Of a DNA stretch of 64,000 bases, positions 1 through 49,076 are shown piece by piece (position 1 is the stretch's first letter; each line of letters begins with the position of its first letter). The stretch is from Sphingomonas sp. LR60 (GTDB taxonomy: Bacteria > Pseudomonadota > Alphaproteobacteria > Sphingomonadales > Sphingomonadaceae): assembly GCF_036855935.1 (NCBI RefSeq), contig NZ_JASPFK010000001.1:3288501-3352500 (forward strand), written 5' to 3'. Position numbers and translations under genes: made by a program. Below the pieces are notes generated by a model. It had not been told where the DNA came from and ran no database searches. It saw nothing but the letters and a program-made list of their open reading frames with translations.

Positions 1-533
1 GGAGAGATCGACGCCCAAGTCCTTGGCGCGCGCGCGAACGGCAGGGGAGGCGAGGACGGGAGCGGTGTGAGAGGAGCTAGGCGAAACAGGCTCCCTCTCC
101 CCTCCGGGGAGAGGGCTGGGGTGAGGGGCTGGTGTCTCACCGAGAGCGTCCTCTCTGCGAGGCTCCGTCCCCTCACCCAAACCCTCTCTCCGAGGGGGAG
201 AGGGCTTATCGGTGGCTTCCTCTACGCCGGGGTTTTCGGCTTCCAGCGTCGCGGGTTCGGTGGCGGGAGCAGCGACCTCGCCCTCCCCTCACCCTCGGTC
301 TCGATCACCACCAACGGGGCGCCGATCGACACCTGATCCCCGACCGCGCCTGCGATCTCGACCACGACCCCCGACACCGGCGATTCCATCTCGACGGTCG
401 CCTTGTCGGTCATCATGTCGGCGAGGCTCTGGTCCTCCTCGACGCGGTCGCCGACCGCCACGTGCCACGCGACGATCTCCGCCTCGGAAATGCCCTCGCC
501 GATATCCGGCAGCTTGAAGGTGAAACGCGCCAT
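1..533 (-). CDS. bkdB: Branched-chain 2-oxoacid dehydrogenase E2 (dihydrolipoyl acyltransferase), 5' part, frameshifted
   Basis: E2 core subunit that takes the acyl group from E1 onto a lipoyl arm and passes it to CoA. The start ATG is at 533-531, six bases after the E1beta stop. A lipoyl domain fills about residues 1-75, with the lipoyl lysine in the MTDKATVE motif. A peripheral subunit-binding domain begins at the left edge (VLASPAVRARAKDLG) and the catalytic core lies outside the window. The two parts are in different frames: one G is missing from the G run at 285-288 (plus-strand CCCC). Restoring it gives an open frame from ATG to base 1. The linker between the domains contains a palindromic repeat (91-206) read in frame. 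A pyruvate rather than branched-chain substrate is possible, but the E1alpha type argues for branched-chain. Confidence 0.85.
91..206. repeat. Palindromic interspersed repeat, family A (CTCTCCCC type), inside the E2 gene
   Basis: About 116 bp bounded by complementary CCCTCTCCCC / GGGGAGAGGG arms with inner GTGAGGGG / CCCCTCAC arms. It matches the copies at 26647-26752 and 29217-29331 and a remnant at 42205-42240. Unlike the intergenic copies it sits inside coding sequence. On the minus strand in the E2 frame it has no stop codon and encodes about 39 residues of Pro/Glu/Arg-rich linker. Confidence 0.85.
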
Positions 534-1765: not shown

Positions 1766-3064
1766 TCACTTCCGGTCCCACGGCCGGCCGCTTGCGGTTT
1801 CCTCGTCGATCATCATCTGCCGCTGCTCGCGCAAATGCCACGGCATCTCCTCGAACACGCCGTCGAACAGCGAGTCGAGCGGCTGGCGCAAGCCATGCCC
1901 GAGCACGCCGTTCTTCTCGGCCTCCTTCTGCGCCGCCTTCACCTCCTCGGCGACCTCGCGGTCCATCTCGGCCTGCCGCGCCTCGTCCCACTCGCCGATC
2001 GCGACCAGATGATCCTTCAAGCGCCGGATCGGATCGCCGAGCGGCCACGCCGTCGGCTCGCCGGCCGAGCGATATTGCGTCGGGTCGTCGGAGGTCGAAT
2101 GACCCTCGGTGCGATAGGTGAAATGCTCGATCAGCGTCGGCCCGGCATTGGTGCGCGCTCGCTCGGCGGCCCAGGCGGTCGCGGCATAGACCGCCAGCGC
2201 GTCATTGCCGTCGACCCGCAACCCCGCGATCCCATAACCGACCGCGCGCGCCGCGAAGGTCGTCGCCTCCGCCCCCGCAAACCCCGAGAAGCTGCTGATC
2301 GCCCACTGATTGTTGACAACGTTGAAGATCACCGGCGCACGATAGACGGTCGCGAAGGTCAGCGCGGAATGGAAGTCTCCCTCCGCGGTCGAGCCCTCCC
2401 CGCACCATGTCGCCGCGATCCGCGTATCGCCCTTCGATGCCGACGCCATCGCCCAGCCGACCGCCTGCGGATATTGCGTCGTCAGATTGCCCGAGATCGA
2501 GAAGAAGCCGAAGCGCTTCTCCGAATACATGATCGGCAGCTGCTTGCCCTGCAGCTTGTCGCCGGTGTTCGAGTAGATCTGGTTCATCATGTCGACCATC
2601 GGGCACCCCCGCGCGATCAACAGCCCCTGCTGGCGATAGGAGGGGAAGCACATGTCCTCCGCATCCAGCGCGTGCGCCGCGGCGACCGCCACCGCCTCCT
2701 CGCCGAGCGACTTCATGTAGAAGCTGGTCTTGCCCTGCCGCTGCGCGCGAAACATGCGTTCGTCGAAGGCGCGGACGGTCGCCATGTGGCGCAGCATCCG
2801 CTGCAGCGTGTCGGGCGACAAGCGCGGGTTCCACGCGCCGACCGCCTGATCGTTCTCGTCGAGGACGCGCACCATCGTGTAGGCGAGTTCGGTGAAATCG
2901 CGGGCGGCTTCGGCGGTATCGGGGCGCCGCGCCGCGCCGGCGGCCGGGATCGGAACGTCGGCGAAGTCGACCGCATCGCCGGGTCGGAATTTGGGTTCGG
3001 GGACGTGCAGCGACAGGGGCGGCAGGTTGCCACGCGGGTGCACGATACCGGGTTCTTCGCCCAC
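1766..3064 (-). CDS. bkdA1: Branched-chain 2-oxoacid dehydrogenase E1 alpha subunit
   Basis: Thiamine-diphosphate-binding alpha subunit that decarboxylates branched-chain 2-oxoacids from Val, Leu and Ile and reductively acylates the E2 lipoyl arm. 432 residues. The ThDP motif is visible near residues 221-250 (GEGSTAEGD ... [10 protein letters not shown]), and the phosphorylation-loop-like [16 protein letters not shown] segment follows. The roughly 60-residue N-terminal extension with a [14 protein letters not shown] sequence is typical of bacterial BkdA1 rather than PdhA. The start is GTG at 3064. It is first in a minus-strand unit with E1beta and E2. No operator was recognised upstream; the LexA box at 3219 faces the divergent imuA gene, though it is close enough that an effect on this promoter cannot be excluded. 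Confidence 0.93.
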
Positions 3065-3218
3065 GTTTCACTCTCCGTCATGCGCTGCTTGGCACGCAGC
3101 ACGATTTCAGCCGCTTGTAATATTGTTTCAACGCCAGTCAAAGCCCTTTTCGCCGATCCGCAACGCCATACGGCTAGTCCCGGATCGTGACAGACCATTG
3201 ACTCGCACCATCGTTCTG

Positions 3219-16708: not shown

Positions 16709-16731
16709 CCGTCGCTCGCTCCCCCACCCCC

Positions 16732-16824
16732 GTCATTCCCGCGAAGGCGGGAATCCAGAACCTCGGACGTGGCGGCCCTTGCCAAGACCCGCGTGTCTGA
16801 ATCCTCGACTGCGCGGGCATGACG
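16732..16824. repeat. Interspersed repeat, family B
   Basis: GTCATTCCCGCGAAGGCGGGAAT at the left, imperfect complement ending GCGCGGGCATGAC at the right. It occupies most of the spacer between the MscS gene and the symporter gene; no promoter was recognised in the remainder. Confidence 0.8.
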
Positions 16825-26646: not shown

Positions 26647-26752
26647 CTCCCTCTCCCCTCCGGAGAGAGGGGTAGCGGGGACGGCGACCATGCAACACGC
26701 GACAACGTGCGTGGCCGCCCCTCACCCAACCCTTTCCCCAAGGGAGAGGGCT
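26647..26752. repeat. Palindromic repeat, family A, between atpD and atpC
   Basis: CTCCCTCTCCCCTCCGGAGAGAGGGG at the left and CCCTCACCCAACCCTTTCCCCAAGGGAGAGGG at the right, with a divergent centre relative to copies at 91-206 and 29217-29331. Confidence 0.85.
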
Positions 26753-29216: not shown

Positions 29217-29331
29217 CTCCCTCTCCCCGTCGGGGAGAGGGCCGGGGTGAGGGGCCGGTGCCTCGCAGAGAGCGTCGTCTCGCTGAGACACCGGCCTCTC
29301 ACCCAACCCTCTCCCCAGCGGGGAGAGGGCT
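29217..29331. repeat. Palindromic repeat, family A, between atpA and atpG
   Basis: CTCCCTCTCCCCGTCGGGGAGAGGG at the left and CTCACCCAACCCTCTCCCCAGCGGGGAGAGGG at the right, each itself a hairpin, with GTGAGGGG / CCTCTCAC inner arms. Closest to the copy at 91-206. Confidence 0.88.
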
Positions 29332-34061: not shown

Positions 34062-34110
34062 GAGCGCGTCGCTTCCGTCATTCCCGAGAGGACGACACCC
34101 CTGCTTCCCG

Positions 34111-34200
34111 TTCCCCGGCGAAGGCCGGGGCCCAGTTGGGAGACGCTCGTAACTATCTGAAAGCCCTACCCACCTGGACCCCGGCCTCCGCCGGGGAACG
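34111..34200. repeat. Interspersed repeat, family E (CCCCGGCGAAGGCCGGGG type)
   Basis: TTCCCCGGCGAAGGCCGGGGCCCAG at the left and CTGGACCCCGGCCTCCGCCGGGGAA at the right. Copies: 37371-37470, 40661-40765, 48987-49076. It occupies most of the gap between cpaF and the next gene. Confidence 0.85.
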
Positions 34201-37236: not shown

Positions 37237-37370
37237 TCTCGACGCCAAGGATTTGATCGTCGGCCCCGCTTCTTGCCGACAGAAGTGAGAAGCGGGTGCC
37301 GGAAATATGTCAGGGTCGAAGTGCGACCCACCTGAAGCTTAAGTTGTGATCCATCAAAGCTGAGGTCGTA

Positions 37371-37470
37371 CCCCGGCGAAGGCCGGGACCCAGTTGGGAG
37401 ACGCTGCTGATACGCGTCGCGTTTCATCATTCTGGCCATCGCAACTGGACCCCGGCCTTCGCCGGGGAAC
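37371..37470. repeat. Interspersed repeat, family E
   Basis: CCCCGGCGAAGGCCGGGACCCAG and its complement CTGGACCCCGGCCTTCGCCGGGGAA enclose about 50 bp. The 449-bp gap 37237-37685 holds this copy plus family F sequence at about 37556-37629; I see no gene in it. Confidence 0.85.
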
Positions 37471-37600
37471 GACAGGGATGGTTCAAACCGGATCGACCAA
37501 ATCTTCGCAAGCCCGTCCATGCCGAGCCTGCCTCTATGGACGCGCCTCACCCACACCACTCGCGCTGAGCCTGCCAAAACGGGCGCGCCGCACCCACACC

Positions 37601-40605: not shown

Positions 40606-40660
40606 GGGCACGGCGGCGCACCCCGCCGCAGGGGAGCGCCCGACTAAGCCTCCACTAGCC

Positions 40661-40765
40661 GTCACCCCGGCGAAGGCCGGGGCCCAGTGGGGAAAGCCGA
40701 AGAAACGACGCGCAGCGCGCATCATCAACGTCCCCCAGCTGGACCCCGGCCTTCGCCGGGGTGAC
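40661..40765. repeat. Interspersed repeat, family E
   Basis: GTCACCCCGGCGAAGGCCGGGGCCCAG with the complement CTGGACCCCGGCCTTCGCCGGGGTGAC. With the 11-bp array it fills the 402-bp gap between alr and the next gene; I see no gene there. Confidence 0.88.
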
Positions 40766-43393: not shown

Positions 43394-43522
43394 GCACGGG
43401 AGATAGGGCGTGCGGGCTGCGAAAGCCATCTTTCCCGGACGTGCCCCGGGGGCTGCTTCTTCGCTGCACCTCGGCTGAAAGCCAGGCCGGCACGCCGTAG
43501 GATGAGCCCGCCCTGCCCCATC

Positions 43523-43614
43523 GTCATCCCCGCGCAGGCGGGGATCCAGAACCTCTGACCTGGCGGCTCTTACGAAGACCTGCGCGTCTGGATTCCCGCC
43601 TCCGCGGGAATGAC
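43523..43614. repeat. Interspersed repeat, family B
   Basis: GTCATCCCCGCGCAGGCGGGGATCCAG with the complement CTGGATTCCCGCCTCCGCGGGAATGAC. Lies between the rnr start and the metallophosphoesterase stop. Confidence 0.88.
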
Positions 43615-48971: not shown

Positions 48972-48986
48972 GACCGCCCGTTAGGC

Positions 48987-49076
48987 GTCACCCCGGCGAA
49001 GACCGGGGCCCAGCCGGGAAGGCCGTTGTTACAATGCGCTGGGCGTCGTCACCTACCTTCCGCAGGTAAGGTGACG
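48987..49076. repeat. Interspersed repeat, family E, diverged right end
   Basis: GTCACCCCGGCGAAGACCGGGGCCCAG at the left. The right end GTCACCTACCTTCCGCAGGTAAGGTGAC is itself an inverted repeat. It follows the ATP-grasp stop by 15 bp and may act as its transcript end. Confidence 0.75.

Follow-up and report, generated by a model that had tools for sequence, protein, structure and literature searches.

In one type of Sphingomonas E2 protein, the linker that joins the lipoyl domain to the E3-binding domain is a hotspot filled by several unrelated families of palindromic repeats, and in many members of the genus it would consist largely of captured repeats. This pattern is wider than the preliminary description, in which a single palindromic repeat was proposed to form part of one such linker, resembling the palindromic elements of Rickettsia, and to be tolerated by the permissive linker. 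That idea is supported, with a correction of the reading frame. Recurrent capture and turnover of REP- or MITE-like palindromes at protein-tolerant sites is the probable origin of the pattern.

The window, i.e. the whole stretch of 64,000 nucleotides that was analysed (G000:C1:3288501-3352500), belongs to a Sphingomonas-type genome of 3.94 Mb in two contigs. A family-A palindromic element occupies positions 91-206. It is composed of two REP-like arms in inverted order, the first at 93-146 (plus strand) and the second at 151-204 (minus strand). The arms are 54 nt long each, 80% complementary and separated by 4 nt, giving a near-palindrome of 112 nt. Each arm contains a small hairpin of its own (93-102/106-115, which is perfect, and 179-191/195-207). 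The RNA fold of the element has a z of -7.8 against dinucleotide shuffles. Arms, fold and genome-wide relatives agree that the palindromic repeat is real. Terminal inverted repeats, a criterion for MITEs, are present. Inspection by eye, without consensus comparison, revealed neither a GTAG nor a CGTC tag in family A; in family E, judged in the same manner from the D4 and D5 copies of the window, CGTC precedes the stem.

The start of the window falls inside the E2 gene, which is located on the minus strand. The lipoyl domain is encoded at 295-533 (minus strand, start codon 533-531; PF00364 with E 1.3e-21 on window:222-530:-). The linker upstream of the repeat (207-275, minus strand) reads EVAAPATEPATLEAENPGVEEATDK and contains the conserved EAENPGVEE, the same words being found in most relatives. 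The E3-binding domain starts at 1-57 (minus strand; PF02817 with E 9.1e-6, residues 42-60 of window:1-180:-) and leaves the window, and the catalytic domain follows at G000:C1:3287703 onwards (L033, ORF 2200-3180). The Pfam matches thus bear out the position of the repeat between the two domains. In the E3-binding frame the element is free of stop codons and is translated on the minus strand as KPSPPRREGLGEGTEPRREDALGETPAPHPSPLPGGERE, which confirms the expected linker segment of about 39 residues. Four of the six frames of the element are open, and openness by itself is unremarkable.

From its sequence, we take the operon to be of the branched-chain type, with genes for E1-alpha, E1-beta and E2. 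The branched-chain assignment of the E2 substrate specificity is putative. The E2 protein of the relative L064 possesses lipoyl, E3-binding and catalytic domains and scores under the curated threshold of all NCBIfam E2 models listed. By the E2 gene, the closest named relatives are S. phyllosphaerae FA2 and S. endophytica.

The proposal that the repeat is an in-frame part of the E2 linker holds for the E3-binding side, with which the repeat is open. In this assembly, the lipoyl frame has already parted upstream of the repeat. The two frames are offset by one base and diverge within a G-rich segment (about 276-298, minus strand). The lipoyl frame ends at a stop at position 222, the E3-binding frame has a stop just upstream of the linker, and the linker of 239 nt is not divisible by three. 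In five named relatives (L064, L065, L066, L068 and L069) one continuous E2 frame covers the whole gene, beginning at the lipoyl start. E1-beta lacks one base at about position 1234 of the window (minus strand), where it differs from all five relatives and its frame is broken. Furthermore, a gene of the same genome that is presumably glyS-like has a one-base frame change inside its own family-A copy. The breaks in these three genes suggest indels or homopolymer errors of the assembly, and the E2 frameshift is likely a sequencing or assembly error rather than a true break. A decayed E2 pseudogene in this strain, or a misassembled repeat, would agree with two one-base breaks in the same operon. 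The similar break in the glyS-like repeat fits sequencing error, the five relatives are intact and 139 of 143 linkers of the genus are in frame, so that decay or artefact is highly improbable as an explanation.

The element gives 32 BLAST matches in its own genome, which merge to about 19 places, 11 of them longer than 80 bases. Two further copies had been proposed within the window. The intergenic copy at 29217-29331 (G000:C1:3317717-3317831) is recovered as a whole, whereas the diverged copy at 26647-26752 is covered by BLAST only at 26647-26671 (G000:C1:3315147-3315171). A REP/RAYT-type transposase (PF01797) was searched for in 31 genomes and found in seven of these, two of them among the 19 genomes of the genus; the own genome has none.

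Other palindromic repeats are dispersed in the window as well. One family is present at 1583-1681, 16712-16810 and 43503-43601 (CGTCATTCCCGC...GCGGGAATC), and a related repeat forms the E2 linker of L352 from another genus, where it reads SRHPREGGDP...MDSRLRGND. A CGTC-type repeat (CACCCCGGCGAAGGCCGGGGCCCAG) is located at 34104-34200, 37367-37471, 40656-40765 and 48982-49045, and encodes SPAKAGAQ...GPRPSPG in E2 linkers elsewhere.

The genus search comprised 151 genomes, from which 144 E2 loci were obtained and 143 linkers were read. Seven genomes were left out: G007 and G057 have no ortholog, the locus of G054 is at a contig edge, and G065, G068, G083 and G111 are not among the matches listed. 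G131 (L039) has no lipoyl match, and second copies (L258-L262) were excluded. The frame is kept throughout the genus, as 139 of the 143 linkers are a multiple of three and free of stops; the four frame-broken linkers (L034, L192, L246 and L255) all bear repeats. Repeat-encoded linkers number about 114, of which 100 were recognised by peptide patterns and 14 by eye; 29 linkers are repeat-free. The labels are A (36), C (24), D (18), E (14), H (9), F (7), B (5), doubtful D (1) and none (29), with combinations such as AC and AB forced to a single label in the 14 set by eye. The linkers of relatives differ from that of the window or have no family-A repeat, the repeat is dispersed in the genome, and the E3-binding frame contains no stop. 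An identical linker in all close relatives, which would speak against an insertion, was thus not found.

The repeat nature of these linkers is evident from DNA matches. A comparison with 731 kb of Sphingomonas DNA gave at least two matching places outside the E2 gene for 106 of the 143 linkers, and for 5 of 429 codon-shuffled controls. The noise level is given by the catalytic regions, 50 of 143 of which have at least one match and 5 of 143 at least two. By these places, 110 linkers fall into three groups (78, 18 and 14) without any common matched place. Thus, at least three superfamilies exist that are not linked by DNA similarity. Median hairpin z values range from -2.9 to -7.7 for the repeat classes, compared to -0.2 for the 29 repeat-free linkers. 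Such hairpins are very stable (z -7.8 and -13.8), as would be expected if an mRNA hairpin slowed translation between the domains or protected the transcript and the peptide were a by-product. An RNA function of this kind is highly improbable, given that differently structured families replace each other, that about 29 of 143 linkers do without a repeat and that the encoding frame is strongly biased.

A family-wide search yielded 69 loci, 68 of them from other genera, and every linker is in frame. In this sample, one or more BLAST rows to outside Sphingomonas DNA were obtained for 28 of the 69 linkers and two or more for 23; these counts carry no shuffle control.

The linkers of the sister proteins PdhC and SucB served as controls, comparing the last 150 nt upstream of the E3-binding domain (143 E2, 27 pdhC and 27 sucB linkers). 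At least two outside places are matched by 102 of 143 linkers of the E2 type described here, by 2 of 27 pdhC linkers and by 5 of 27 sucB linkers. The median hairpin z is 0.16 for pdhC and 0.46 for sucB. A single pdhC linker (L272 of G028, z -6.2) and none of the sucB linkers is repeat-like. Values of z below -2 also occur in the control linkers L289, L294 and L317; the remaining outside matches and low z values of pdhC and sucB are read as matches of Ala/Pro-rich codons. The two controls rule out that any E2 linker collects repeats. As they are nearly repeat-free, being an E2 linker is not sufficient for repeat capture.

Family A is found between genes (e.g. 29217-29331) as well as in the conserved genes E2, valS and murD of the own genome. 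Examination of 17 family-A places showed that valS and murD are interrupted in frame. A further gene, which we assume to be murB-like, carries a copy at its end, and the copy in the glyS-like gene is the frame-broken one described above. An insert is present in valS of 13 of the 45 genomes read, with 50-58 residues between the anchors versus 17-19 without insert, and in 13 of the 22 murD loci read; the loci were found with insert-containing queries, and the sample is therefore biased to inserts and not random. The anchors failed to read 4 of 50 valS and 8 of 30 murD loci. The valS inserts are of types A, A/F-like, H-like and in one case D-like, and all are located at a single place, between residues 472 and 474 of T. 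thermophilus ValRS (pdb entry 1gax). The murD inserts (A, C or A/F/H-type) likewise share one place. Candidate valS inserts in G004, G012, G021, G028, G030, G039, G040, G051 and G057 were rejected, as none was present when the sequences were read. In valS of G024 (L421 and L495) the family-A insert is truncated and the frame shifts downstream of it, which corresponds either to a sequencing error or to true damage to an essential gene. Comparison of occupied and empty valS and murD sites revealed no outstanding target-site duplication, and the flanks differ between species.

The distribution of the families on the gene tree is patchy, and neighbouring sister rows frequently carry different families. 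A tree was calculated by a quick method from the lipoyl and catalytic DNA of the E2 gene itself, with 44 of 140 inner branches open. It requires at least 71 changes of label (shuffled mean 91.6), 44 of superfamily and 20 between presence and absence. Counting well-supported branches only, there must be 18 changes for A, 15 each for C and D and 10 for E. In five species, a small palindrome with matching ends lies inside a linker of family A, B or C. In L040, L063, L152, L219 and L225 such a small palindrome, with the ends AGCATCGGG/CCCGATGCT or similar, lies in frame within linkers of differing families. The nested palindrome of G105 is 97% identical to that of G147 over 87 nt, whereas their catalytic DNA is 81% identical. 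Part of the 71 changes may therefore reflect allele exchange or the spread of one recent element. The nested segment is matched elsewhere in G082 and G090; for G105 no match outside the E2 gene was found among the 40 of 116 candidates that were scored.

The nested element would also fit a scheme of few old captures, with the patchiness arising chiefly because Sphingomonas strains exchange E2 linker alleles by homologous recombination. The C-type linkers L159, L163 and L165, which are situated within an A-type clade and are mutually alike, point in the same direction. Such exchange is an unlikely main source, as the same families occur independently in valS, in murD and in the 23 of 69 family-wide linkers with at least two BLAST rows (no shuffle control), and at least three unrelated groups need capture anyway. 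A different role of resident repeats is a tentative possibility, though a fairly unlikely one: hairpins residing at tolerant sites of core genes could attract non-homologous palindromes, or exchange with them in situ, each gene having one fixed cassette site. This is suggested by the nested palindrome and by the single site that several families share in each of E2, valS and murD.

The linker keeps its frame, and its amino-acid sequence is weakly constrained. Measured between the conserved ENPG and the E3-binding domain, pN/pS ranges from 0.24 to 0.96 across seven clades with repeats, compared to 0.05-0.13 for the catalytic domain. In the repeat-free set the values are 0.45 and 0.22, respectively. 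Since repeat-free linkers have high pN/pS too, the relaxation is a property of the linker and cannot be ascribed solely to the insert. Family-A-like arms in the E2 linker use one open phase 24 times and the other open phase not once, counts that are inflated by shared descent. This phase bias, together with the 139 of 143 linkers in frame, rules out chance openness as the sole source of in-frame reading. The used phase is rich in Gly, Glu and Pro, and linkers with repeats are longer (median 83 versus 64 residues). Both observations would suit repeats that are retained for making the swinging arm of E2 longer or looser. The high pN/pS and the losses besides gains on the tree speak against such an adaptive role, as do the pdhC and sucB linkers, which manage without repeats, and the unrelated valS and murD genes, which carry them. 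We regard it as very unlikely.

For recurrent capture, the following course is proposed. A dispersed palindrome of about 112 bp, built of two inverted REP-like arms, would insert into the linker between the lipoyl and E3-binding domains and be translated as a linker rich in Pro, Gly, Glu, Ser and Arg. Unrelated palindrome families would reach this permissive linker repeatedly, and copies would be lost when they disrupt the frame or yield an unsuitable peptide. Survivors may replace or overlay each other, be deleted, or pass between strains as linker alleles. The single loops of valS and murD would behave likewise. Insertion, beyond allele exchange alone, presumably delivers the families, an outside transposase may move the elements, and the linker peptide is expected to be disordered and near-neutral. 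Several observations weigh against capture: the own copy and the lipoyl domain are in different frames, all four broken linkers bear repeats, valS of G024 is broken, pN/pS of repeat-free linkers is also high (0.45), the nested element is more alike between two species (97%) than their catalytic DNA (81%), and PF01797 is absent from the own genome.

Descriptions of in-frame palindromes usually treat them as a peculiarity of Rickettsia or as scattered cases of intragenic REPs. The linker described here, from a free-living genus, provides more than 100 natural variants at a single position, and the repeat-free sister genes act as controls. These variants allow us to ask how non-coding mobile repeats become protein, what sets phase and site, and whether resident hairpins attract others. 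For annotation, they are a warning that such repeats are part of real proteins.

A search of the literature found no report of repeats in this E2 linker among the papers listed. Within the literature covered, we regard three aspects as new: the repeat families, a hotspot that serves several families in most of a genus, and the contrast to sister linkers. The palindromic elements of Rickettsia are described as about 100-150 bp long, dispersed, peptide-encoding, and both intergenic and in frame in conserved genes (PMC2229807, PMC10969869). The elements described here are alike in size class (112 nt), in dispersal (19 places) and in residing between genes as well as in frame in unrelated conserved genes. 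They differ in that the host is free-living and of another alphaproteobacterial order, and that each host gene has one fixed site used by several unrelated families. By description, the families are set apart from those of Rickettsia, and family A is GC-rich with two REP-like arms. Intragenic REPs of the GTAG and CGTC superfamilies are REP dimers inside reading frames, and the accessible text on them names tRNA synthetases and tRNA pseudouridine synthase of S. alaskensis and E. litoralis as sphingomonad cases, proposes linkers and loops as tolerant sites and reports different REPs at about one site in recB of two Xanthomonas species (PMC3733652). Unlike these, families A, C, F, H and B have no GTAG or CGTC tag visible by eye. 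In contrast to the cases in that portion of text, most of a genus is affected at one linker, with family turnover and a contrast to sister linkers. BIMEs are paired inverted units. Bacterial MITEs are described as non-autonomous, dispersed and hairpin-forming (PMC10969869). The present elements resemble both in being paired inverted units that are dispersed and form hairpins, and differ in that neither a target-site duplication nor a mobilising transposase is demonstrated. Their mode of action is like that of the Rickettsia palindromic elements and of the intragenic REPs already known; the families are different, and single hotspots accommodate several of them.
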